Assembly: GCF_000786205.1 (NCBI RefSeq)
Contig: NZ_JROH01000007.1
Span: 1 to 64,000 of the forward strand
Direction: 5' to 3'
DNA: 64,000 nt
DNA from: Sphingomonas sp. 37zxx
GTDB lineage: Bacteria; Pseudomonadota; Alphaproteobacteria; Sphingomonadales; Sphingomonadaceae
In this document: positions 46,446 to 62,479 of the stretch, piece after piece
Layout: each line of letters opens with the position of its first letter
How positions within the stretch are numbered: position 1 is the first letter of the stretch
Program-made: the position numbers and the translations under genes
Notes under the pieces: model-generated
Databases searched by the model: none
The model's input: only the letters and a program-made list of their open reading frames with translations
Told to the model about the DNA's origin: nothing

Positions 46446-49400
46446 TCAGAACTTGGCGCGCACCCCGAAATTGACGGTGCGACCAAAAGTGTGGATTTCG
46501 GTAAACTCCTTGCGCGTTCCCGCGAACGATACCTGGCGTCCGTCGAGTACGTTCACCGCCTGCATGAACAATTCGACATTGGGGCGAAGCTGATAGCTGC
46601 CGCCCAGATCGAGGATGCCGAATCCGTCCTGATAAAAGGCGACGACGTCCTCGGTCGTCGGCAGCGACGTCACCACCGCACCCGCATCGGTCATATACTG
46701 GCTGCGATAGGTGTAGCTAAGGTTGAACTCGAACGGCCCGCTCTCGAAAAACGGCGTGATCGAATAGCTGATGTCCGACACCCCCTGAACGCCTGCCGAC
46801 TGGACGCCGACACCCGCCAGGTCGAGCTCAAGCTTCGACGTCGCAAAGGTCGCGGTCGCCGTCACGCCCAGGCCAAAGGCAAGGCGGTTGGTATAGCCGA
46901 ATTCGATGCCCGAGATCGTCGCATCGCCGACATTGGTCGGCGTCGCCACCAGCACGTCGACCGGCAGGGTCGATCCGTCGTTCACCGCAAAGGCAAGCGT
47001 GCGGGTTTCGAAATCCGACGCGATGTAATCGCTCACGTCCTTGTAAAAGGCAGCGGCGGTGAACGCGCCGAACTTGTCGAAATACCATTCGAACGACAGG
47101 TCGAGATTCCACGACGTATAAGGCCGCAAATTCGGATTGCCCGCCGTTGCGTTGAGGTTGAGCGTCTCATCCTCGAGCGCGGCCGCCCCCAGGTTGAAGA
47201 TGTTGGTCACCGTCACGCTGTTGGTGTTGATCGAGTTGCGAAGCTCGGCCAGCGACGGGCGGGTCATCGTCTTTGCCGCGCCCAACCGAAATTGGATGTT
47301 CTTGGCAATGCTGAAGTTCGCGTTCGCGCTCGGCAACCACTCCTGATAGCTGGCCGAGGTGGTGATCGGCGTCACCTGCGTCGTTACCCCGCCGGTCGCG
47401 GTGCGAACCGGCGACACCGTAGTGCCGTCGACATCGGTTGCGGTGCGGACATAGCGCAAGCCGACATTGCCGCTCACCGGCACCGTTCCCACGTCCGACG
47501 CGAAATCGATCCGGCCATAGCCGGCGACCACTTCCTCATCGATCCGATAGCTGTTCTGCCGATCGGCGGCGTTGGGCTCCAGATCATAGGCGCTGGGGTT
47601 CACCCCGTCGAACTCGCCCGCCAGCACATAGGATTGGTTGAACAGCCCCCAATCGACATTGGTCCAGGGCTGGAAGGTGCCGATCTGCTGGTCAAAGGCA
47701 TTGGACGGCACCGCCGCGCCCAGGAAATCGCCGGTGCGCGTGACGCCCGGACGCAACACCGTCGTGCTGCGGTCGCGCCGCTGATAGTCGCGATAGCGAT
47801 CCGAATATTGCCCGCCATAGGCGATCCTGGTGATCTTCAGGCCGCCCAGGTCGATCTCGGTGTCGCGCGACACGTTCAAGACCAAGGTCTGGTCCTCGTC
47901 GCGCGAATTGATCGGGCGCACCGCGAAGCTTTCGAACGGCATCACCGACGGGTCGGTCAGGTCGAGGCTGGTGAACAGCGAATTAACCTTGGCGCGATTG
48001 ACGACATCGCCGCGAAAATCAAAGGTCAGGTCGCCGCCGCGCGCATTGGCGGTGCGATATTGCACGCGCTGGATCGGCGTAACCAGGTCGCTCTTGGCCT
48101 GGGCATAGCTGAACCGCGGCTCGAACCGCCACCCGTCCAGATCAAGCCGCATCGTGGCGTTGAGCTGCAAATTGCGGTGCGACTGGTCGAGATATTCGGC
48201 ATAGTTACGGATACGTGCGCCGCGGATCGTGCCCGCCACCAGCCGGCCATCCTCGACCACCGCGGTCGTCGGGTCGAGCCGGGCGATCTGGCTGGGGATA
48301 TAATAGGTCAGGCGGCGCTCGACCGTCTCGTTGTTGAACTGCGAATACAGCCCGTCAATGTCGAATTCCAGGTTCGGCGCGGGGCGCCACTGGACGCCGA
48401 CGATCCCGCTGATCCGCTCGCGATCTTCCAGCTCGAGATAAGGCTGCGCGTCACCCGGCACGCGCAATTCGCCCAGGCCCGGCACTTGGACGTCGGACCA
48501 ACCCACGCGCAGCCGATCGAACTGCACCTGGCGCTTTGAATAGGCGATGCCGCCCAGCACGCCAAAACTGTTATCGGCATTGTGCCAGCCAGCCGACAGG
48601 CTGCCATTGGGGTTCAGCGTATCGGTGCGCTCGTCATAGCCGCCGAACAGATTGGCCGCGACGAACGAATCGCGATCGAGCGGATTGAGCAACCGGATGT
48701 CGACCGTCGATCCGATGCCGTTTTCCACCAGATCAGCAGTGGGCGATTTGATGACGACGATACTGTCGATCAGCGTTGCGGGCAGCACCTGCAAGCGGAA
48801 CTGACGGCCCGACTGGCCCGAATTGCGAATATTTTCGTTATACGCCAACGGCATGCCGTCAAAGGTGATCGCCTGAAAATTTGGCCCCAGCCCGCGCACG
48901 CTGATGAACTGGCCCTCGCCTGCTTCGCGCACGATCGTCACGCCGGGAACGCGCTGCAACGCCTCGGCGATGTTGAACGCCGGCAGCTTGCCGATGTCCG
49001 CCGCAACGATCGCGTCGGAGATCGAATCGGCGTTGCGCTTGACATCCAGCGAGCGAGCGACGCCCTCGGAGAATTTGGCGGTGATGACGATGTCGCGCTC
49101 AACGGCGGCTTCGTCGCTGTCGGCGGGCGTCGTCGCCGCTGGCGTTTGCTGGGCCGCCGCCGTCTGAGGGCGGACGATCAGCGCACCGGCGGCATCGCGC
49201 GTCACCGTCAGCGGCTGGCCCGCGATCAGCCGGCGCACGGCTGCCTCAGCCGCGAATTCGCCGCTGAGCGCAGGGGCGTTCAGCCGGGCGACGCTCGCGC
49301 GGGTGAACAGGATGTCGCTACCGCTCTGGCGCGCCAGTTGCTCGAGCGCGCGGTCCATCGGTTGCGCGGCAATGCTGAAGCGCACGCGGCGCTGATTGTC

Positions 49401-49508
49401 CTGCGCCTGCGCGGCCCCCGCCATCGCCAAGGTCGAAAGGGCGAGCGCAAGCGCCGCCGAACGGCCCAGCCCCTGCTTCAGGCCAGGCTGCCGCTTCAAA
49501 ATCGTCAT
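46446..49508 (-). CDS. TonB-dependent receptor with N-terminal STN signalling domain
   Basis: 1020 aa. Signal peptide (ALALALSTLAMAGAAQAQ), then an STN domain (about 40-112, with PMDRALEQLARQSGSDILF), linker, plug domain (NIAEALQRVPGVTIVREAG, FISVRGLGPNFQAITFDGMP) and a long beta-barrel ending in VNFGVRAKF with terminal Phe. The STN domain marks it as a transducer that contacts FecR in the periplasm. Its FecR and sigma genes lie directly upstream. The substrate is unknown; similar sphingomonad receptors take up glycans, siderophores or plant oligomers. Confidence 0.95.
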   Translation of the reverse strand: MTILKRQPGLKQGLGRSAALALALSTLAMAGAAQAQDNQRRVRFSIAAQPMDRALEQLARQSGSDILFTRASVARLNAPALSGEFAAEAAVRRLIAGQPLTVTRDAAGALIVRPQTAAAQQTPAATTPADSDEAAVERDIVITAKFSEGVARSLDVKRNADSISDAIVAADIGKLPAFNIAEALQRVPGVTIVREAGEGQFISVRGLGPNFQAITFDGMPLAYNENIRNSGQSGRQFRLQVLPATLIDSIVVIKSPTADLVENGIGSTVDIRLLNPLDRDSFVAANLFGGYDERTDTLNPNGSLSAGWHNADNSFGVLGGIAYSKRQVQFDRLRVGWSDVQVPGLGELRVPGDAQPYLELEDRERISGIVGVQWRPAPNLEFDIDGLYSQFNNETVERRLTYYIPSQIARLDPTTAVVEDGRLVAGTIRGARIRNYAEYLDQSHRNLQLNATMRLDLDGWRFEPRFSYAQAKSDLVTPIQRVQYRTANARGGDLTFDFRGDVVNRAKVNSLFTSLDLTDPSVMPFESFAVRPINSRDEDQTLVLNVSRDTEIDLGGLKITRIAYGGQYSDRYRDYQRRDRSTTVLRPGVTRTGDFLGAAVPSNAFDQQIGTFQPWTNVDWGLFNQSYVLAGEFDGVNPSAYDLEPNAADRQNSYRIDEEVVAGYGRIDFASDVGTVPVSGNVGLRYVRTATDVDGTTVSPVRTATGGVTTQVTPITTSASYQEWLPSANANFSIAKNIQFRLGAAKTMTRPSLAELRNSINTNSVTVTNIFNLGAAALEDETLNLNATAGNPNLRPYTSWNLDLSFEWYFDKFGAFTAAAFYKDVSDYIASDFETRTLAFAVNDGSTLPVDVLVATPTNVGDATISGIEFGYTNRLAFGLGVTATATFATSKLELDLAGVGVQSAGVQGVSDISYSITPFFESGPFEFNLSYTYRSQYMTDAGAVVTSLPTTEDVVAFYQDGFGILDLGGSYQLRPNVELFMQAVNVLDGRQVSFAGTRKEFTEIHTFGRTVNFGVRAKF

Positions 49509-49619
49509 CGAAATCCCCCGTCTCCCGCTCCCAACGAGCGTCCATCCCCCCGACGACGGGCGATGATTTTACCTCACCCCGCAGTGCGAAAAAAATCGGG
49601 GGCGGCGGGGTAAAGCGGC

Positions 49620-50552
49620 TCAGCTAACCGATGATATGCGGATCGTGTCGGCCCCCGCCTCGACGCGCACCGGCAGCAGCACCGCGAGCGAGCGGGCAAA
49701 TGCCTCGGGATCGCCCACCCGGTACATGCCGGTGAAGCGAAGCGCCGCCGCCTGCGGATCGGCGACCACCAATGGCCGCTGAGTATAGCGGTTCATCTCG
49801 GCGGCGGCCTGTGCCAGCGTTTCGTCGCGAAACGCCAGCCGCCCGGTCTGCCACGCGATCAGGTCTTCGAGTTCGGGGCGATCGACCCGGTCAGGGCTAC
49901 CCTGCGCCATCGCGATCCGCTCGCCGGGCACCAGCGGCAATGTGGCACCCGCCGCTTCGACCCGCGCGACCCCTTCGATCGCGGTCATCGCCGCGCGCGC
50001 ACCGTCGCGGCGCACGTCCAGTCGCCCGCGAAGCGCCAGCGCCCGCCGATCCCCCGCCAGGATCGCGAACGGGCGCGGATCGGCCGCGATCTGCAAATCG
50101 ACCCGCCCCGCCGACAGCGTCAGCGTCCGCAAGTCCGATCGGGTGCGAAACCGAATATTGGTGTCGGTGTCGAGCATCACCCGCGTGCCGTCTTCCAGCA
50201 CCAGCCGGCGCTGTTCGCCTACCCCGGTGCGATAGACCCCGGCGGTCGCCTCGCGCCAGCCCAGCACCGATCCGCCCGCGACCAGCAGCGCGCTGCCGCC
50301 CGCCATCACCGCACGCCGCGACAACATCGGCACGGGCGCGGCAGGAGGGCCGACGATGGGCGTGGTGGCGGCCAGGCCACCGACCGAATCCCACACGGCA
50401 GATGCGCGTTCAAAGGCATCGGCATGGCGCGGATCGGCATCGATCCAGGCGCGAAAGGCGGTTTGATCGGCGTCGGTGCGGTCGTCGGCGTGCAGTCTTG
50501 CCAGCCATGCTGCGGCCTGCCGGTTGGATGTTGCCGGCTCGCCGCGGATCAC
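49620..50552 (-). CDS. FecR-family anti-sigma/sensor protein
   Basis: 310 aa. An N-terminal DUF4880-type cytoplasmic helix bundle (AAAWLARLHADDRTDADQ, FRAWIDADPRHADAFE), then a membrane helix after SRRAVMAGG (about 80-97), then the FecR domain (GEQRRLVLEDGTRVMLDTDT) and a C-terminal STN-like DUF4974 part. It relays receptor occupancy to the sigma factor. Starts with a GTG one base beyond the sigma stop. Confidence 0.92.
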   Translation of the reverse strand: MIRGEPATSNRQAAAWLARLHADDRTDADQTAFRAWIDADPRHADAFERASAVWDSVGGLAATTPIVGPPAAPVPMLSRRAVMAGGSALLVAGGSVLGWREATAGVYRTGVGEQRRLVLEDGTRVMLDTDTNIRFRTRSDLRTLTLSAGRVDLQIAADPRPFAILAGDRRALALRGRLDVRRDGARAAMTAIEGVARVEAAGATLPLVPGERIAMAQGSPDRVDRPELEDLIAWQTGRLAFRDETLAQAAAEMNRYTQRPLVVADPQAAALRFTGMYRVGDPEAFARSLAVLLPVRVEAGADTIRISSVS

Positions 50553-50553
50553 G

Positions 50554-51054
50554 TCACCAACTCTCCATCCACTCGGTCAGATGCGTCATCGCCTTTGCGA
50601 TGTGCTTTTCGACGGCGCTCTGGCTGATCCCCAGTTCGTCCGCGATTTCGCGATACTTACGCCCCTCCAGCCGGTGCATCAAGAAAATCTGCCGGGTGCG
50701 CGGACTCAGCCGCTCGACGCCGCGGCGCAATCGCTCGAGCCGGTGCCGCGCGATCAGCGTTTCGTCCTGCAACGGATTGCGATCGGCCAGCGTATCGACG
50801 CTCAGTTCGATCGGCACGGCGGTGCCGGCGCGCCGTTCGCGGCGATAGGCGTCATGCCCGCGATTGGCGGCGGCGCGGGCAAGCAACGCCACCGGATTGT
50901 CGGCTACCACTTGCCGCTCGGCCAGCCCGATCCAGGCGTCGTGCAACAGATCCTCGGCATCGTCGCGCCTGGTCATCCGCGCGATCTGGTCGCGCAGCCG
51001 TCCCCAGCCCAATACCAGCCTGCCGCCGTGGATCGAAGCATCACCTGCCTGCAT
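50554..51054 (-). CDS. ECF sigma factor (FecI-like)
   Basis: 166 aa. Region 2 includes RRDDAEDLLHDAWIGLAER and region 4 LSPRTRQIFLMHRLEGRKYREIADELGISQSAVEKHIAKAM, as in FecI-type sigma-70 factors. It directs RNA polymerase to the receptor promoter when released by FecR. The order sigma-fecR-receptor is the standard cell-surface-signalling cassette. Confidence 0.94.
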   Translation of the reverse strand: MQAGDASIHGGRLVLGWGRLRDQIARMTRRDDAEDLLHDAWIGLAERQVVADNPVALLARAAANRGHDAYRRERRAGTAVPIELSVDTLADRNPLQDETLIARHRLERLRRGVERLSPRTRQIFLMHRLEGRKYREIADELGISQSAVEKHIAKAMTHLTEWMESW

Positions 51055-52542: not shown

Positions 52543-52667
52543 GGCGGCTCCCTATGCAGCAATCCTCATCGATGCGACGCTTTCACGACAACAGCATGAC
52601 GGCGCAGCCCCGACGGCCGCTGCGCCCAAGGCTTCCTAACCTCCGCCGCCGCGCCTATGCCGATCGG

Positions 52668-53564
52668 GTGCAGCCGACGATCCGCCAGCTTCGTTTTCTT
52701 GTCGCGCTTGCCGACCATGGCAGCTTCACACGCGGAGCCGCTGCGGTCGACGTCACCCAGCCCAGCTTTTCGCAGCAGATTCAGTTGCTCGAGGCGATGT
52801 TGCAGGGCCGGGTCGCCGAACGCGGTAGCCGCACGATCCTGACCCCGCTGGGCCGCGACGCAGTGGCAGCGGCACGGCGGGTGCTGGCCGAGGTCGACAG
52901 CTTCGCCGCCTTGGCCGAACGGCATGTCGAGGCGCTGTCGGGCACCATCCGGCTCGGCGTGTCGCCGACGCTTGGCCCGTATATATTGCCGCAACTCGTC
53001 GCGCGTCTGCACGCCACCAACCCTACGCTGCGGGTGCATGTCCGCGAGGGCATGCCGGGGCCATTGCTCGAAATGCTGGCCGACGGCGCGCACGACGTGG
53101 TGCTGCTGCAACTGCCGATCGACGGGGCGGGCCTGCATGTCGAGCGGCTGTTTCGCGATCCCCTCTACCTGGCGATGGCCGCCGATGATCCGCTGCGCGA
53201 CCGCGCCGAGATCACCGCCGCCGATCTTGCCGGGCGAGGGCTGCTGACGCTCCAGCCGCAATATCGCATGAGCGATCAGGTGACCGCACTTGCCGAAGCC
53301 GCCGGCGCGCGCGTGCTTCGCGATTATGAAGGCACCAGCCTTGATGCCATTCGCCAGATGGCGGGGATGGGCATGGGCCTTGCCTTCCTGCCACAACTTT
53401 ATGTCCGCCAGGAGATTCGCAGCGGCGACGAAGTGATCGCGCGGCCCTTTAAGGGTGGCCTGCATTATCGTGAGATCGGGCTGGTCTGGCGCGCGGGCGC
53501 CGGGCGCGCACCGGCATTTGAAAAATTGGCAAACCTGTTGCGACAGGTTGCCGCCATAGGATAA
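52668..53564 (+). CDS. OxyR-like LysR regulator lacking both redox cysteines
   Basis: 298 aa from the GTG at 52668, which begins MQPTIRQLRFLVALADHGSF, the OxyR-type N-terminus; the in-frame ATG at 52596 would add 24 residues. A winged HTH (GAAAVDVTQPSFSQQIQLLE) precedes the effector domain. The sequence follows OxyR closely through LLTLQPQYRMSDQVTALA and GTSLDAIRQMAGMGMGLAFLP. The two peroxide-sensing cysteines (E. coli C199 and C208) are replaced by R200 and A209. It probably senses something other than H2O2, or acts constitutively. It lies immediately upstream of the export operon. Confidence 0.85.
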   Translation: MQPTIRQLRFLVALADHGSFTRGAAAVDVTQPSFSQQIQLLEAMLQGRVAERGSRTILTPLGRDAVAAARRVLAEVDSFAALAERHVEALSGTIRLGVSPTLGPYILPQLVARLHATNPTLRVHVREGMPGPLLEMLADGAHDVVLLQLPIDGAGLHVERLFRDPLYLAMAADDPLRDRAEITAADLAGRGLLTLQPQYRMSDQVTALAEAAGARVLRDYEGTSLDAIRQMAGMGMGLAFLPQLYVRQEIRSGDEVIARPFKGGLHYREIGLVWRAGAGRAPAFEKLANLLRQVAAIG

Positions 53565-53619: not shown

Positions 53620-53644
53620 AGGTCGAGCATCTAAGGAGAATATG

Positions 53645-55336
53645 ATGGCGGCAAAGCGCGTAGGATTGCGGGCGTTCGGAGGCTGGATCGCGCTGGTGCT
53701 GGCGCCTGATGCCGCATTCGTGCGGCTGGCGATCGTCTATGGCATCGCGATTTCGCTGCTGTCGCTCGCAACGCCGATCTCAGTGCAGTTGCTGATCAAT
53801 TCGGTGGCGAACACCGCCCTCCCGGCACCCTTGTTCACCCTGGCGGGAATCCTGTTCCTGCTGCTCACCATCGCCGGCGTGCTCAGCGCGCTGCGAATCC
53901 ATCTAATGGCGGTATTCGAGCGGCGCTTGTTCGCGCGGATGGTCGCCGAAATCACGCTGCGCGCGGTGCATGCGCAAAACCCGTTCTTTGCCGATGCGCG
54001 CCGCGGCGACCTGTTCAACCGCTATTTCGACCTGATCACGGTGCAAAAGGCGGTGCCCAGCCTGCTGATCGGGGGCTTCACCATCGTGCTCCAGGGCGCG
54101 GTCGGCCTGATCGTCACCAGCTTCTATCACCCGTTTTTCCTCGCGTTCAACGGCGTGCTGGTCTTCACTTTGTTCGTGATCTGGCAGGTTTGGGCCTCGG
54201 GCGCGGTCCGCAGCGCGGTCGGCATGAGCCATGCCAAGCATCAAACGGCGCACTGGCTCGAAAGCGTCGGCGGGTCGAACGGCTTCTACAAATCCAGCCG
54301 CCATCTCGATTTCGCAATGGACCGGTCCGAAGCAATGACCGCGACCTATGTCAACGCGCATCGCCGGCATTTTCGCTACACCTTCGCGCAGACTTTGTGC
54401 CTGTTGTTCACCTATGCCTTTGCCAGCGCGACGTTGCTGGCGCTTGGCGGCTGGCTGATCATCCAGGGCGAATTGTCGATCGGCCAGTTGGTCGCTGCCG
54501 AACTGATCCTGTCGGGCGTATTCTATGGCATCGCGCAATTCGGCACCTATCTCGAATCGCTCTATGACCTCGCCGCCAGCCTCGAGGAACTGTCGCTATT
54601 CTGGGACATCGCGCAGGAAGAGCCGCGCGTCGGCACCAGCCATGGTCCCGCCAATGGCGCGATCCGGCTGCGCGGGGTGCGCCACGGCGGCCATGTCTTC
54701 GATTTTTCGGTCGACAGCGGCGAACAGCTCGCGGTCGTCGCCGCGCCGGGGGTCGAACGCACGATCGCTCGCTTGCTCAAGCGCCACGAACTGCCGTCGC
54801 GCGGGCTGGTGCTGGTGGGGGGCAGCGACATTGCCGGGTTCGACATGTATCGCCTTCGCGCCGATGTGATGGTGCATGAACGGCCAAGCTTCGTCGAAAT
54901 GTCGATCCGCGAGTATCTGACGCTCGCTGCCTCGGGTGATGCCACCCGGATCATGGATGTGCTCGACATCGTCGGCCTCACCACCCGGATCGGGGCGCTC
55001 AACGACGGGCTCGATACGATCGTATCGAACTCGGGCTGGCCGTTTTCGGTGGGCGAAACGATGGCGCTCAAGCTCGCCGCATCCTTGCTCGCCTGCCCGC
55101 GCGTGCTGGTGCTGTCGCCGCTCTACGATCTGCTGCCCACCGCGCGGATCGACGCGGCGCTGGCGATATTGCGCGAAAGCGGCACCACCGTGTTGCAATT
55201 CACCCGCCGTCCGCAGGGGCTGACGCGCGACGGTCGGCTATGGGTCGGCAGCCAGGTACAACAGCGCTGCGCCAGCGAAGCCGAACTGATCGCGCTTGCC
55301 CGCGACGAAGGAGATACCGATGCCCTTCCGGCCTGA
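53645..55336 (+). CDS. ABC exporter-like protein with a degenerate nucleotide-binding domain
   Basis: 563 aa. Residues 1-310 form a six-helix exporter transmembrane domain, as in type I secretion ABC proteins; no C39 peptidase. From about 335 the NBD fold is recognisable in order, but its motifs are gone. Walker A reads APGVERT with R372 for the lysine. The Q-loop region reads VMVHERPSF. The signature is FSVGE (467-471), Walker B VLVLSPLYD (S491-P492 for Asp-Glu), and the H-loop FTRRP. ATP hydrolysis is not expected. The second of two adjacent ATGs (53645) has AGGAG 6 bp upstream. It overlaps the HlyD gene by 17 bp. No sign of frameshift, so this is a maintained protein. Confidence 0.85.
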   Translation: MAAKRVGLRAFGGWIALVLAPDAAFVRLAIVYGIAISLLSLATPISVQLLINSVANTALPAPLFTLAGILFLLLTIAGVLSALRIHLMAVFERRLFARMVAEITLRAVHAQNPFFADARRGDLFNRYFDLITVQKAVPSLLIGGFTIVLQGAVGLIVTSFYHPFFLAFNGVLVFTLFVIWQVWASGAVRSAVGMSHAKHQTAHWLESVGGSNGFYKSSRHLDFAMDRSEAMTATYVNAHRRHFRYTFAQTLCLLFTYAFASATLLALGGWLIIQGELSIGQLVAAELILSGVFYGIAQFGTYLESLYDLAASLEELSLFWDIAQEEPRVGTSHGPANGAIRLRGVRHGGHVFDFSVDSGEQLAVVAAPGVERTIARLLKRHELPSRGLVLVGGSDIAGFDMYRLRADVMVHERPSFVEMSIREYLTLAASGDATRIMDVLDIVGLTTRIGALNDGLDTIVSNSGWPFSVGETMALKLAASLLACPRVLVLSPLYDLLPTARIDAALAILRESGTTVLQFTRRPQGLTRDGRLWVGSQVQQRCASEAELIALARDEGDTDALPA

Positions 55337-56372
55337 TCACCTTACCCATTTTCCAACGCTCGCATCGATCCGTCCGCCTCGCGTCACCCGTGCAATCGCC
55401 TGGATGCTGATGATCAGCATCGGCGTCGTCACCGCGATCCTGTTCGGCGTGCCGTGGGTTCAGACCTCGCCCGGAGCCGGCCAGGTAGTCGCGCTCAACC
55501 CCGATGACCGCGTGCAATCGGTAACCGCATTGGTTCCTGGCCGCGTCGAGCGGTGGTTCGTCAACGACGGCGATCAGGTAAAGGCCGGCGATCCGATCGC
55601 CCGCGTGGTCGACAACGACCCCGACCTGCTCACCCGCCTGCGTGCCGAACGCGCACAAGTCGAAGCAGAGATCGCCGCCGCGCAACAGGCGATGACCGTG
55701 GCGCAGCTTGACGTCGGTCGCTCGCGCCAATTGCTCACCGAAGGGCTGATTGCCCGGCGCGATTACGAAGCGTCGCAGATTCGCGTCGCCGATCATGTCG
55801 CCAAGCTGGCCGAGGCGCGCGCCAAGCTCAGCCGGGTCGATGTCGGCCTCAATCGCCAATCGGCGCAGGTGGTGCGTGCCCCGCGCGAAGGCCGGATCCA
55901 GTCGATCAACGCCGCCGCCGGCGCGACGTTGGTCAGCCCCGGCGACATTCTGGCAACGCTCGCGCCCGATCGGCCGGTGCGCGTCGTCGAATTGCTGGTC
56001 GACGGGCGCGACGTTGCCCTGGTTCGCCCGGGCCGCCCGGTACGGCTGGCATTCGAAGGCTGGCCAGCGATTCAGTTCAGCGGCTGGCCGTCGATCGCCG
56101 AGGGGATGTTCGACGGTCGCGTGCGCTCGCTCGACCCTTCAGCGCAGGCGACCGGGTTGTTCCGGGTGTTGGTCGAGCCGATGCCGGGCCGCCCAAGCTG
56201 GCCCGACGACGATTATGTCCGGCTGGGTGCCAAGGTGCGCGGCTGGATCCAGATGGAAACCGTCAGCGTCGGCTATGAATTGTGGCGTCAGCTCAACGAC
56301 TTCCCGCTCGAGTTCCGCCGCCCCGCGCTAGAGGCCGAAGCCAGGAACAAAGCACAGGAGCAGACCAAGTGA
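55320..56372 (+). CDS. HlyD-family membrane-fusion (periplasmic adaptor) protein
   Basis: 350 aa. One membrane helix (about 28-46, WMLMISIGVVTAILFGVPWV), lipoyl halves (VTALVPGRVERWFVNDGDQVKAGDPIARV and VVRAPREGRIQSI) around a rather short coiled-coil hairpin (about 100-190), then beta-barrel domains. It links inner- and outer-membrane exporter parts. GAAGGAGA precedes the ATG at 55320. The downstream gene starts by GTGA overlap. Confidence 0.92.
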   Translation: MPFRPDHLTHFPTLASIRPPRVTRAIAWMLMISIGVVTAILFGVPWVQTSPGAGQVVALNPDDRVQSVTALVPGRVERWFVNDGDQVKAGDPIARVVDNDPDLLTRLRAERAQVEAEIAAAQQAMTVAQLDVGRSRQLLTEGLIARRDYEASQIRVADHVAKLAEARAKLSRVDVGLNRQSAQVVRAPREGRIQSINAAAGATLVSPGDILATLAPDRPVRVVELLVDGRDVALVRPGRPVRLAFEGWPAIQFSGWPSIAEGMFDGRVRSLDPSAQATGLFRVLVEPMPGRPSWPDDDYVRLGAKVRGWIQMETVSVGYELWRQLNDFPLEFRRPALEAEARNKAQEQTK

Positions 56373-57775
56373 GACGATTGGCGCTCGCGCTGCTCCTGCT
56401 GGTCACAGTGCCGGCAGGGGCAACCGCGCAGACGCAGAGCCAGACCCTGACGCTCGACGAAGTGCTTCGCTCCTCGGCGGTCAACGCGCCGGCCATCCTC
56501 GAAGCGATCACCCGCGAGCGTCAGGCCGATGGCCGCCGGCTTTCGGCTGAAGGCGCGTTCGACACCTTGTTCGAGGGCGACGCGCAATCGCGACTGCTGG
56601 GCTTTTACGACGGCACCGTGGTCGAGGGGCGCGCCAGCCGACCGTTCGTCAATAATGGCGGCGGCATCTATGGCGGTTACCGTATCTCGCGCGGCGACTT
56701 CCCGACCTATGAGAGTAAGGGGTTCACGAACCAGCTTGGTGAGGTGAAAGTCGGCGCGGTGTTCGCGCTGATGCGCGATCGCTTTGTCGACGAACGCCGC
56801 ACCCGGATTGATCTTACCAGCCGCGACATCGAACTTGCGCGCCTCGACCGCGAGATGGTGGCGATCGGGGTACAGCGCCGCGCGATCGATTCCTATCAGG
56901 TCTGGGTCGCGGCGGGCATGCGGGTTGCGGTCTATCGCGACCTGCTGGCGCTGGCCAGCGAGCGACAGACCTCGATCGAACGCCAGATCGCGCTCGGCGC
57001 ACGGCCCGATATTCTCAGCACCGAGAACCGGCAAAACATCGTGCGTCGGCAGACCTTGCTGATTCGCGCCGAACAGGAACTGGCCAGCGCCGCCAACGCG
57101 CTGTCTTTCTATCTTCGCGATGCCGATGGCGAGCCGGTCACCCCCGCACCCGCTCGCTTACCCAACAGCTTCCCCGCGCTTCGGCTACCACCATTGGGGC
57201 CTGATCTGGCGCAGCGGATCGAGCGGCCCGACCTCGACGCCATATTGGTTCGGCTCGACCAGGCAGCCGCTCGCCGCCAGCTCGCCGAAAACGACATGCA
57301 GCCCCGCCTCGATCTTCGCGCCGAAGCGGCCAAGGACATCGGCCCGGTCGGCCTGGCCGGTGCGGGCAGAACGCCGGCCGAGGGCATTGTCGGCCTGCGT
57401 TTTTCGCTGCCGCTCGAACGCCGCCAGGCGCGCGGTCGCATTGCCGAGGCGCGCGCCGAGGCCGATGGCCTTCGCCTGCGCCGCAAGCTGATCGAGGATC
57501 AAATCCTGGTCGAGGTAAACGGCCTGGCGATCCAGGTCGATGCCGCCGAGCGGCTGGTGGCGCTCGCCGGCGACGAAACCGCGCTTGCAACCCGCATGGC
57601 CGAGGCCGAGCGTCGGCGTTTCCAGCTTGGTGCCAGCGACTTCATCGTCGTCAATCTGCGCGAGGAATCAGCAGCCGATGCGCGGCTGCGCCAGCTCGAC
57701 GCCGAATTTCGCCGGTCGTCGGCGCGCGCCGAACTGGTCGCCGCCACCGTCGATCGCGCGCAACTCGGTCTGTAA
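56369..57775 (+). CDS. TolC-family outer-membrane efflux protein
   Basis: 468 aa. Signal peptide (LALALLLLVTVPAGATAQ), then two alpha-helical OEP repeats: LTLDEVLRSSAVNAPAILEA in the first; IDSYQVWVAAGMRVAVYRDLL and the LGASDFIVVNLREES segment typify the helices preceding the outer-membrane turns. It forms the exit duct. The GTG at 56369 overlaps the HlyD stop and has AGGAG upstream. Confidence 0.92.
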   Translation: MRRLALALLLLVTVPAGATAQTQSQTLTLDEVLRSSAVNAPAILEAITRERQADGRRLSAEGAFDTLFEGDAQSRLLGFYDGTVVEGRASRPFVNNGGGIYGGYRISRGDFPTYESKGFTNQLGEVKVGAVFALMRDRFVDERRTRIDLTSRDIELARLDREMVAIGVQRRAIDSYQVWVAAGMRVAVYRDLLALASERQTSIERQIALGARPDILSTENRQNIVRRQTLLIRAEQELASAANALSFYLRDADGEPVTPAPARLPNSFPALRLPPLGPDLAQRIERPDLDAILVRLDQAAARRQLAENDMQPRLDLRAEAAKDIGPVGLAGAGRTPAEGIVGLRFSLPLERRQARGRIAEARAEADGLRLRRKLIEDQILVEVNGLAIQVDAAERLVALAGDETALATRMAEAERRRFQLGASDFIVVNLREESAADARLRQLDAEFRRSSARAELVAATVDRAQLGL

Positions 57776-57797: not shown

Positions 57798-57850
57798 TTT
57801 CCTACATTGTTCCATATGGGTTAGCCATCCCGCTGCAACAGGAGGCTATG

Positions 57851-58414
57851 ATGGACAGCAACACCCCTATCGAAGACCTGATCGACGACGTCATCGCGCG
57901 CGAAGGCGGCTATAGCGATCACCCCGCCGATCGCGGCGGCCCCACCCGCTGGGGCATCACCCAGGCGGTGGCGCGCGCCGATGGCTATACCGGCGATATG
58001 CGGCATTTCCTGCGCGAGCGCGCGGTCGCCATCTACACCCGTCTTTACTGGACCCGTCCGCGCTTCGACTTGGTGGCCAAGGCAGCGCCGCGAATCGCCG
58101 CGGAATTATTCGATACCGGCGTCAATATGGGGCCGAAAATCGCCGCGACCTTCCTCCAGCGCGCGCTCAACGCGCTCAATCGCAACGCCCGCGACTATCC
58201 CGACATCACCGCAGACGGTGTGGTGGGGCCGCAAACCGTTGCGGCACTTTCGGCCTTCATACGGGTGCGCGGGGATCGCGGCGAAACCGTGCTGCTGAAA
58301 GCGATCGAGGCGCTGCAAGGGGCGCGCTACCTCGACCTCGCCGAGCGCCGACCCGCCAACGAAGCCTTTCTCTACGGCTGGCTTGCGAACCGGATCGGTG
58401 AACCCGGCGGCTGA
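57851..58414 (+). CDS. Endolysin, glycoside hydrolase family 108 (gene-transfer-agent type)
   Basis: About 187 aa. The N-terminal REGGYSDHPADRGGPTRWG is the GH108 catalytic segment with E18 as the predicted acid; FDTGVNMGPKIAATFLQRAL and the peptidoglycan-binding-like ITADGVVGPQTVAAL follow. These muramidases lyse cells for phage and for gene transfer agents (the R. capsulatus GTA endolysin is of this kind). No signal peptide is evident, so holin-dependent release is expected. AGGAGG favours the second ATG (57851) over 57848. Confidence 0.9.
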   Translation: MDSNTPIEDLIDDVIAREGGYSDHPADRGGPTRWGITQAVARADGYTGDMRHFLRERAVAIYTRLYWTRPRFDLVAKAAPRIAAELFDTGVNMGPKIAATFLQRALNALNRNARDYPDITADGVVGPQTVAALSAFIRVRGDRGETVLLKAIEALQGARYLDLAERRPANEAFLYGWLANRIGEPGG

Positions 58415-58459
58415 CAACCACGTCGCCCGCATCGACCCATCGAAAAACGGAGCATCGTC

Positions 58460-58873
58460 ATGAGCATCCTCGACGGCCTGATCGGTCCGCTTGCCGGCCT
58501 GATCGACAAGATCATTCCCGACCCCAAGGCGCGCGACGCCGCCAAGCTGGAGCTGCTGAGGCTCGAAGGTAGCCAGGAGATCGAAGCGATGCGCGCGCGC
58601 CTGTCGGCGATCGTCGCCGAAGCGCAATCGGTCGATCCCTGGACCAGCCGCGCGCGCCCCAGCTTCCTCTATGTCATGTATGCGCTGTTCCTGTTCGCGA
58701 TCCCGATGGGCCTATTATCGGCGCTGTCGCCGCAAATGGCGCTGAGCATTTCGAACGGCATGACCGCGTATCTGCGGGGACTGCCCGAGGAACTCTATGC
58801 GCTGTTTGGCACCGGCTATCTTGGCTACACCGCCGCACGCCAGTGGGGAAAGGCCAAGGGGGCGGATCGCTAA
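58460..58873 (+). CDS. Holin of the GTA 3TM family
   Basis: 137 aa. The N-terminal half, [20 protein letters not shown], is amphipathic. [20 protein letters not shown] opens the first strong helix, and the C-terminus [19 protein letters not shown] matches the GTA-associated three-helix holin family. It would make membrane lesions letting the endolysin reach the wall. GGAG lies before the ATG. Directly downstream of the endolysin gene (45 bp), so probably one transcript. Confidence 0.85.
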
Positions 58874-60856: not shown

Positions 60857-61264
60857 TTATTTGGCGGGCTTGCGGTAAGGCGTGAACATCCCGAGGCGGC
60901 AAAAGGCCGACGGGATGGTCACGCCGCCGCGTGGCAGCGTCTGGAACCGGTCGTTGCGGCACATCTGCCCGCCAAAGATTTCGGCGATGACGATCGAATC
61001 ATCGTCGAGCGAGGGGCATCCCTCGACGTTGGTGACCCACAGTTCCGCGCCGATCTGACGGTAGATCATCACGTCATTGCCGATGATCTGCGGCCCTTGC
61101 GGATTAAGGCTTGGCAGGCATTGCTGCGGTTCTCCCGCGACCAACCCTCGGGTAACCTTGGCGAACTGCGCGGCCGCCTGCGCTTCGCTGGCCGCCATTT
61201 GCTCGGGCGTCGCGGCACAGCCGAACAAGGCTAGCCCAAGCGAAGCTGCAACCAGCGCCCGCAT
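60857..61264 (-). CDS. Small lipoprotein, paralogue A
   Basis: 135 aa. A lipobox LALFGC (Cys16) follows a short signal, so the protein is lipid-anchored. The mature part has conserved-looking Cys residues (AGEPQQCLP, NVEGCPS, GGQMCRND, SAFCRLGMF). It resembles the next gene in order of motifs: (V/A)(A/P)GxPQxC, GC, xxCRxD, xxC.LG.F.PYR. Function unknown. Confidence 0.78.
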   Translation of the reverse strand: MRALVAASLGLALFGCAATPEQMAASEAQAAAQFAKVTRGLVAGEPQQCLPSLNPQGPQIIGNDVMIYRQIGAELWVTNVEGCPSLDDDSIVIAEIFGGQMCRNDRFQTLPRGGVTIPSAFCRLGMFTPYRKPAK

Positions 61265-61692
61265 CAGCTATCCCCCGATCGCGATGGCCGGCGATAGGGC
61301 ACGAAATCGCCCAGCGCGCACGATCCGGTGGGGAACCCGGTATTACGGTCGACCAACGTCACGATATCGCCGCGACATAATTGGCTGATCGGCGTCTGTG
61401 TCACCATGATATCGTTGAAGCCGATTCGGCAGCCGGGGCTGGTGTCGTTCCGATAAAACTGCCGGGTGCCGTGCTGGTACAGGATGGTCTGGCCATAGCT
61501 ATTGCTGCCGCGAATCTGGCTATACGGAACGCAGGATTGCGGCTTGCCGGGAACCAGGCCCGCCAATCGTTTTTCCAGTTTTCCGGCCTGCTCAGCTTCG
61601 GCAGCATCGGTGCGCGCGATCTCCTGCGGCGTGGCGGTGCAGCTCGCCAGCGCGACTGCGGCCAACAGCGAAAAAGCTATGCGATGCATCAT
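61264..61692 (-). CDS. Small lipoprotein, paralogue B
   Basis: 142 aa with lipobox LAAVALASC (Cys18). The mature region contains VPGKPQSCVP, SPGCRIG, LCRGDIV and GSCALGDFVPYRRP, aligning with the four Cys positions of the neighbour. GGGAGA precedes the ATG. It overlaps paralogue A by 1 bp; the two probably arose by tandem duplication and are cotranscribed. Confidence 0.78.
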   Translation of the reverse strand: MMHRIAFSLLAAVALASCTATPQEIARTDAAEAEQAGKLEKRLAGLVPGKPQSCVPYSQIRGSNSYGQTILYQHGTRQFYRNDTSPGCRIGFNDIMVTQTPISQLCRGDIVTLVDRNTGFPTGSCALGDFVPYRRPSRSGDS

Positions 61693-61744
61693 GCGTCTCC
61701 CGGTTCGACCAACCATCGCCCAAATGCTGAGCGCATCAAAATGA

Positions 61745-62479
61745 CTAACCCCTGAACGCATCTTTGGCTGCACGCCGCTCCGCCAGTTGCGCCGCCGTTG
61801 CAGCCCGCAGAAACGGATTGGTCGCAAGCTCGAGCGCGATCGTCGTCGGCACCGTCGGCTCGCCCGCCGCGCGCTGGCGCTCGACCGTCTCAAGCCGCTT
61901 GGCGATCGCCGCATTGCCCGGCTCGGCGACACGCGCGTAACGCCCGTTCGACAGGGTATATTCGTGCGCGCAATAGACCACCGTCTCAGGCGGCAAGGCG
62001 GCAAGGCGCTGCATATTGCCGAACATCTGCCCGGCATCACCCTCGAACAACCGCCCGCAGCCCATCGCGAACAAGGTGTCGCCGACAAAGACGCTCGCAT
62101 CGTCGGCGAAGTGAAAGGCGATATGGCCGGCGGTATGCCCCGGCGTTTCGATTACCGTGGCGACATGGCCGCCCAGTGCAACGCTATCCCCCTCGCCCAC
62201 CAGCCGATCGGCAGTGGGGATCTTCGCCGCCTCTGCGGCAGGCGCGATCACCACCGCACCATGCGCCGCCTTGATCGCGGCATTGCCGCCGGTGTGATCG
62301 GGATGCCAATGCGTGTTCCAGATCGCCCCGATCCGCCAGCCGCGCGCGTCGGCCTCAGCCAACACCGGCGCGGCCTCGGCGGGGTCAACCACCATCGTCT
62401 CGCCTGATTGGACATCATGCACCAGCCAGACATAATTGTCCGACAGTGCAGCGATGCGGACGACTTCCAGCGCCGCCAT
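61745..62479 (-). CDS. gloB: Hydroxyacylglutathione hydrolase (glyoxalase II)
   Basis: 244 aa metallo-beta-lactamase fold. The metal motif NTHWHPDHTGG, then TPGHTAGHIAFHF, then VFVGDTLFAMGCGRLFEG and CAHEYTLSN are diagnostic of GloB. It hydrolyses S-lactoylglutathione to lactate and GSH. Start candidates are the ATG at 62479, the GTG at 62482 (overlapping the gloA stop) and the ATG at 62485. Confidence 0.95.
   Translation of the reverse strand: MAALEVVRIAALSDNYVWLVHDVQSGETMVVDPAEAAPVLAEADARGWRIGAIWNTHWHPDHTGGNAAIKAAHGAVVIAPAAEAAKIPTADRLVGEGDSVALGGHVATVIETPGHTAGHIAFHFADDASVFVGDTLFAMGCGRLFEGDAGQMFGNMQRLAALPPETVVYCAHEYTLSNGRYARVAEPGNAAIAKRLETVERQRAAGEPTVPTTIALELATNPFLRAATAAQLAERRAAKDAFRG

Follow-up and report, generated by a model that had tools for sequence, protein, structure and literature searches.

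A conserved tripartite exporter family whose ABC subunit keeps a folded nucleotide-binding domain without the residues for nucleotide binding and hydrolysis

The dABC cassette and its resemblance to known exporters

The first 64,000 nucleotides of contig NZ_JROH01000007.1 from Sphingomonas sp. 37zxx, here referred to as the window, contain a plus-strand reading frame of 563 amino acids (positions 53645-55336) for a protein that we term dABC. As the preliminary description of this DNA had it, the frame is uninterrupted; an alternative in-frame ATG is present at position 53642 behind the RBS-like sequence AAGGAG. Downstream follow genes for a membrane fusion protein (MFP) and an outer membrane factor (OMF), and a gene for a LysR-type regulator directly precedes dABC on the same strand. 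The features are:

52611..53564, plus strand: LysR-type regulator, exact start uncertain (best models OxyR and CynR, below cut-offs)
53645..55336, plus strand: dABC, 563 aa, a type IV ABC-exporter half-transporter with a pseudo-NBD (frame, profiles, fold)
53645..54619, plus strand: transmembrane domain (TMD) of dABC, residues 1-325 (Pfam ABC_membrane, 32.3 bits; predicted helices)
54500..54502, plus strand: TM6 glutamate E286 (orthologue and family alignment)
54641..55324, plus strand: nucleotide-binding-domain (NBD) fold, residues 333-560, catalytic residues lost (pLDDT 87-96 in 341-550; match to the ComA NBD)
54734..54763, plus strand: Walker A position, residues 364-373, VVAAPGVERT (alignments)
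54878..54883, plus strand: Q-loop position, residues 412-413 (orthologue alignment)
55043..55057, plus strand: signature position, residues 467-471, FSVGE (alignments)
55103..55120, plus strand: Walker B position, residues 487-492, with Ser-Pro in place of Asp-Glu (alignments)
55202..55204, plus strand: H-loop position, T520 (orthologue alignment)
55320..56372, plus strand: membrane fusion protein of the HlyD/RND-adaptor type (17-base overlap between its start and the dABC stop; AAGGAG upstream)
56369..57775, plus strand: TolC-type OMF (likely GTG start overlaps the adaptor stop by 4 bases)

The overlapping starts and stops agree with the earlier statement that the operon is intact. The two partners named there are indeed kept: both genes lie downstream of dABC, and among 120 orthologue loci (117 distinct proteins, three genomes being represented twice) an adaptor gene is found in 118 and an OMF gene in 113, some of the misses being due to short contigs. 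The adaptor scores best with the RND_mfp model, just under its cut-off (85.9 versus 94.9); the adaptor motif R-x3-L-x6-S/T, recovered by a plain pattern in 26 of 73 adaptors, proved uninformative. For the regulator, the OxyR model yields 177 bits versus a cut-off of 329. A LysR gene resides within 2.3 kb upstream in 46 of the 80 named loci, 37 times on the same strand and nine times on the opposite one, and the other flanking genes differ between genera. The dABC-MFP-OMF arrangement recurs as a unit, often together with a LysR gene.

Further gene arrangements were seen in the window. Directly downstream of the cassette (57848-58873), a gene for a GH108 muramidase is followed by one for a GTA-type holin with three transmembrane segments, both assigned with Pfam, and the pair looks like the lysis pair of gene transfer agents. 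Upstream, genes for a TonB-dependent receptor, a FecR-like and a sigma-factor-like protein (46446-51054), recognised from their ORF translations, make up an apparent FecI/FecR-type signalling unit. Two adjacent small lipoprotein-like ORFs on the minus strand (60857-62100) fall into the same cluster in an ORF comparison and look like paralogues. On general annotation of the neighbouring genes, no gene for a secretion substrate was recognised beside the cassette.

With dABC, the Pfam model ABC_membrane scores above its cut-off of 28 bits and ABC_tran below its own (16.4 versus 25). The best curated models are HlyB/LssB-like, TIGR01846 reaching 93.8 bits (cut-off 725.55) and TIGR03375 91.6 bits (cut-off 693.1), with TIGR01842 at 34.5 (cut-off 510.15); HlyB is also the top PDB sequence match. 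With the type I exporters HlyB, PrtD and LssB, dABC shares the type IV exporter fold, the half-transporter organization and an operon with an adaptor and a TolC-like protein. Unlike them, it lacks a C39-like domain, has lost the catalytic NBD residues, scores far under the family cut-offs and has a LysR neighbour, and it differs from HlyB also by a TM6 glutamate (asparagine in HlyB). As the HlyB and LssB models stay far below their cut-offs and the Pfam scan found no C39-like domain, the label "RTX-type" given earlier can stand for a resemblance only, and identity with an RTX secretion system was rejected. dABC takes the position that an ABC exporter of type I secretion would have, yet it is not classed as one because it lacks the working NBD by which such exporters are defined. 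The cassette also shares its layout of inner-membrane pump, adaptor and TolC-type duct with the MacB, EmrB and RND tripartite pumps, but in the Pfam scan dABC matches no MacB-fold ABC, MFS or RND model.

The nucleotide-binding domain of dABC

The motifs of dABC were read against the canonical exporters of the same genome and against HlyB. In place of Walker A stands AAPGVERT, in which the GK column falls on V370-E371 and the S/T column on R372, so that the earlier identification of R372 with the Walker A lysine is about one residue off. The column of the Q-loop glutamine is taken by E412/R413 and that of the Walker B Asp-Glu by S491-P492 (one alignment has a gap there instead), the D-loop reads LLP, and T520 occupies the column of the H-loop histidine. 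The signature, FSVGE, is altered yet recognisable rather than erased; five of the six motifs originally listed as lost are thus replaced, namely Walker A, Q-loop, Walker B Asp-Glu, D-loop and H-loop, and the signature is modified. With Walker A gone, ATP binding by dABC should not occur, going by what is known of this motif.

That the NBD fold is retained, as first proposed, is borne out by an AlphaFold model built from 63 sequences (mean pLDDT 80.2, pTM 0.52), in which the NBD blocks of residues 341-550 reach pLDDT values of 87-96, with lower values in the TMD and weak stretches at 1-4, 111-128 and 322-329. The model superimposes on TM287/288 (6quz) with a Z of 23.9 and on HlyB (8dck) with a Z of 22.7 and an rmsd of 4.4 over 480 residues; its NBD matches the isolated NBD of ComA (3vx4) with a Z of 23.1 and an rmsd of 2.6 over 219 residues, and Foldseek returns PCAT1 at E 2.2e-19. 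A common fold, here a predicted one, is by itself no demonstration of function.

Noncanonical NBD residues on the same exporter fold are also found in the heterodimers TmrAB, TM287/288, BmrCD and TAP. The degenerate subunit of a TmrAB-type heterodimer keeps Walker A for nucleotide binding. In the literature consulted, degenerate sites appear as one member of an asymmetric pair, and the heterodimers named have one canonical site plus a degenerate one that still binds ATP. In dABC, by contrast, neither Walker A nor Walker B is left, and no dedicated partner gene was found, a neighbouring half-exporter occurring in only 16, all of them Xanthomonas, of the 120 orthologue loci. Judged by the sequence features tested, dABC is not a degenerate heterodimer subunit of the TmrAB type.

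Orthologues, selection and the wider family

The dABC gene is present in 52 of 397 sampled genomes of Sphingomonadaceae and in 17 of 96 genera, with a patchy occurrence (three of the 11 listed genomes of the same genus). A scan of genome contigs revealed at least 534 relatives, the best 80 loci of which were kept; these stem from Sphingomonas, Novosphingobium, Sphingobium, Croceicoccus, 16 Xanthomonas, a Caulobacter, a Methylobacterium and others. Plasmid-borne copies also exist, for example on pNL2 of N. aromaticivorans DSM 12444 (SARO_RS19820), in the record of which the protein is annotated as 'ABC transporter transmembrane domain-containing protein'. The Xanthomonas copies share 61-64% identity with the window protein, and L087, the only Xanthomonas copy in our TMD tree, nests among alphaproteobacterial sequences, which suggests transfer between bacterial classes.

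After removal of identical proteins and of one frameshifted copy (G036/L048), the orthologue set comprised 128 proteins including that of the window, mostly from Sphingomonadaceae and Xanthomonas. L097 (482 aa), the N-terminus of which is cut by a contig end, has a complete NBD and was counted. We searched this set for intact motifs in close relatives, a finding that would have pointed to a local pseudogene. None of the 128 unbroken orthologues has Walker A in place, and neither the Walker B Asp-Glu nor LSGG[QEKR] occurs in any of them. L045 has a lone lysine in the aligned Walker A column without a glycine-rich loop, and the Walker A patterns that 11 of the 128 show beyond residue 300 are confined to the linker or the C-terminal tail. 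As the same losses recur throughout the unbroken orthologues, they are not due to chance. Of the replacing residues, R413 is found in 128 of 128; residue 412 is Asp in 103, Asn in 19, Glu in five and Ala in one, and residue 520 is Thr in 103 and Ser in 25.

Selection was assessed by the Nei-Gojobori method for 47 pairs of 80-98.5% identity, each sequence being used once. The median dN/dS is 0.053 for the TMD, with values far below 1 in all 47 pairs, and 0.108 for the NBD (maximum 0.306), with values far below 1 in all 46 pairs that gave one, dS being saturated in the remaining pair. The NBD is constrained about half as tightly as the TMD, yet it is clearly maintained; the dead NBD is under purifying selection and not in a state of local decay.

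In a search of the phylum with dABC, 226 of 398 genomes gave a match at E 1e-20. The best eleven, at E 1e-101 or better, are set well apart from the others, which, judged as a group, look like ordinary ABC exporters. Searches around gammaproteobacterial genomes gave matches in 11 of 274 at 1e-50 and, within a single order, in 47 of 131; further relatives came from Bacteroidota plasmid records. Eight relatives from the gammaproteobacterial and Bacteroidota searches share 25-48% identity with the window protein. An adaptor-like gene accompanies the relatives' genes in 28 and an OMF-like gene in 26 of 28 loci with flanking DNA, a count that leaves out the outgroup L246 and also L191-L201 and most of L209-L228, the flanks of these last two groups being too short.

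Motif states were scored in 64 family members, among which are 14 orthologues of the window gene. The Walker A GK is present in 24, the Walker B Asp in 32, the catalytic Glu in 10, the H-loop His in eight and the Q-loop Gln in none; the four residues K, D, E and H occur together in two members (L234 and L235), and 25 members have none of the five. GK without Glu is seen in 17 of the 64 and Glu without GK in three. Motif loss in the family is thus graded, with the catalytic Glu tending to disappear ahead of Walker A; this order is inferred, the tree not being safely rooted. This TMD tree, computed by a quick method, has very long outgroup branches and unsure deep placements; it implies at least four changes of the Walker A GK, six of the Walker B Asp and seven of the Glu, not polarised into gain or loss. 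The clade containing the window protein comprises 22 rows, none with GK (SH-aLRT 100).

Two states of decay are found within a single order, that of G1358 (L209-L245): relatives with reading frames near 700 aa retain Walker A for the most part and carry Gly instead of the catalytic Glu (LLIVDGLLD), and in those near 560 aa Walker A is mostly lost. The most complete NBDs of the family are those of L234 and L235 (GRSGSGKT/S, LLILDE, His), which may show the ancestral ATP-driven state. Further ABC-like ORFs adjoin L234.

Possible modes of operation

The dABC family is probably powered, or used, in some way other than by ATP. Of the two options put forward at the outset, the data favour a role not driven by ATP, and an active ABC partner encoded elsewhere is the less favoured one. 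The reading that we put first, tentatively and at somewhat less than an even chance, is that dABC is an ATP-independent, secondary exporter of a small molecule driven by an ion gradient. Its membrane domain would export the molecule on the gradient without ATP and hand it via the adaptor into the TolC-like duct, while the pseudo-NBD would stay as a structural clamp coupling the two membrane halves. The clamp would act through the strongly conserved segments NRYFD (125-129) and SNGFYKS (211-217), which by analogy with exporter topology are taken to be coupling loops, and E286 would be a candidate ion-coupling residue. Such a machine would have to lose every nucleotide-binding motif rather than the catalytic Glu alone, since an ATP-bound, non-hydrolysing NBD would keep the membrane domain locked. 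The LysR neighbour suggests a small-molecule substrate and would suit efflux of such a compound better than protein secretion.

Glu occupies position 286 in 128 of 128 orthologues and in 69 of 69 aligned sequences from the wider family, while the same column reads S/L/S/N in four canonical exporters (Glu in 0 of 4). As it is also present in relatives keeping Walker A or Walker B, the TM6 Glu is a family trait that is not tied to NBD loss and alone is no proof of a switch. Taken together, the full loss of nucleotide motifs and the family-wide TM6 Glu fit an ion-driven exporter.

Membrane domains without a working NBD have been studied as MsbA-MD and LmrA-MD, for which ion-driven transport or ion conductance has been reported (PMC4979069, PMC6155054). 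These are engineered truncations; dABC, in contrast, is natural and keeps a folded NBD, and is known here from its sequence and a predicted structure. According to PMC4979069, NBD-less MsbA still effluxes ethidium, driven by a pH gradient, whereas full-length MsbA with the Walker A Lys deleted does not expel ethidium when the cells contain ATP; AMP-PNP is inhibitory to wild-type MsbA, and NBD-less MsbA is not affected. The TM6 glutamate E314 of LmrA is described as essential for proton-coupled transport (PMC6155054); the candidate residue E286 of dABC likewise lies in TM6. Two statements from the same papers count against an ion-driven dABC: ATP hydrolysis is called compulsory for ethidium transport by LmrA (PMC6155054), and NBD-less MsbA is less efficient than wild type (PMC4979069). 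Moreover, the partly kept signature, LSxGE in many orthologues, could complete the ATP site of a partner.

It is conceivable, albeit unlikely, that dABC forms a heterodimer with an intact ABC half-transporter encoded elsewhere, with hydrolysis of ATP at a single composite site made from the partner's Walker A and B and the LSxGE of dABC. Across the 128 orthologues the signature retains L/F in 128, S/T in 108, G in 72 and E in 107, but its third position is bulky (I, V, L, Y or F) in 121. Asymmetric heterodimers of the TmrAB type are well known (PMC8277102), and RtxB/RtxE of Vibrio illustrate that a single type I system can employ two ABC proteins (PMC3034196). No partner half-transporter is present in the window operon. 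At the 120 orthologue loci, of which 3-17 kb each were covered, Walker/LSGG patterns matched in 29. Sixteen of these are all of the Xanthomonas loci (L087, L089, L090, L094, L095, L098, L100, L102-L107, L118, L128 and L150), where an intact half-exporter lies about 2.9-3.5 kb upstream on the same strand; the one profiled (L106) is MsbA_rel, TIGR02204, with 865 bits, over the cut-off. The other 13, inspected by eye in part or in full, are nine UvrA, one ABC-F-like and one ClpA-like protein, one soluble ATPase of the Mla type and one meaningless frame. The LSGG pattern would miss proteins of the LSAGQ type, which are covered by an exporter-profile search of the same 120 loci; this found no further exporter, the other 104 loci being devoid of a second exporter-profile ORF save for the second piece of the frameshifted L048. 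The Xanthomonas half-exporter is the only recurring ABC-exporter neighbour at these loci. The host possesses four other ABC_membrane proteins, among them a TIGR02204 homologue (768.6 bits, just under the cut-off of 780.4) and a PrtD-type ABC protein over its cut-off, the remaining two being Atm1-like and PglK-like as named by eye. However, TIGR02204 is near-universal: of 119 sampled genomes of Sphingomonadaceae, 82 have a match above the cut-off and 112 have one with an E of 1e-221 or better. It thus does not track a cassette gene found in 52 of 397 genomes.

Alternatively, dABC could be a passive conduit, gate or scaffold that anchors the adaptor-TolC duct in the inner membrane and gates it, so that an already concentrated cytoplasmic or periplasmic substrate leaves downhill. 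The retained adaptor and OMF, the conserved presumed coupling segments and an operon with no visible energy source are in line with this, but we regard it as about as unlikely as a heterodimer, given that the very strong selection on the TMD and its polar and charged family-specific residues would seem to exceed the needs of a mere anchor. It is improbable to a still higher degree that the altered NBD serves as a regulatory domain with a new ligand, be it another kind of nucleotide, a lipid or a protein, bound via new conserved residues: R413-P414, G464-x-P466, D495 (invariant in the 128 orthologues) and R522-P523 show little or no variation among the orthologues and occur where the catalytic motifs used to be or next to these sites, but they could serve packing only. 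That dABC is a pseudogene, or a normal type I secretion ABC protein that has decayed locally, is hardly credible: the single frameshifted copy and the patchy occurrence, which would speak for it, are outweighed by the shared state of all unbroken orthologues, dN/dS far below 1 in every pair with a value and intact gene overlaps. This, like a sequencing artefact, is ruled out for the family.

Returning to an ion-driven dABC, it is possible, though we consider it less likely than not, that a natural ABC exporter lineage has turned into a secondary, ion-driven one by stepwise loss first of the catalytic Glu, next of Walker A and finally of the remaining nucleotide motifs, with fold, adaptor and duct kept, and that the graded relatives in Gammaproteobacteria and Bacteroidota record the route. 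ABC exporters are defined by ATP, and powering of their membrane domain by an ion gradient has so far been argued from engineered truncations. We found no description of the dABC family in the open PMC literature, where absence is not proof. If true, the ion-driven lineage would parallel, in natural form, the NBD-less LmrA and MsbA whose proton-driven transport is disputed. If dABC instead pairs with a housekeeping ABC protein, this would constitute a new kind of subunit sharing, and either outcome would matter to transporter specialists. An annotation as 'ABC transporter ATP-binding protein' can conceal a different machine, and a widespread, selected, naturally ATP-dead family with intact partners makes the ion-gradient question directly testable in a clean protein.
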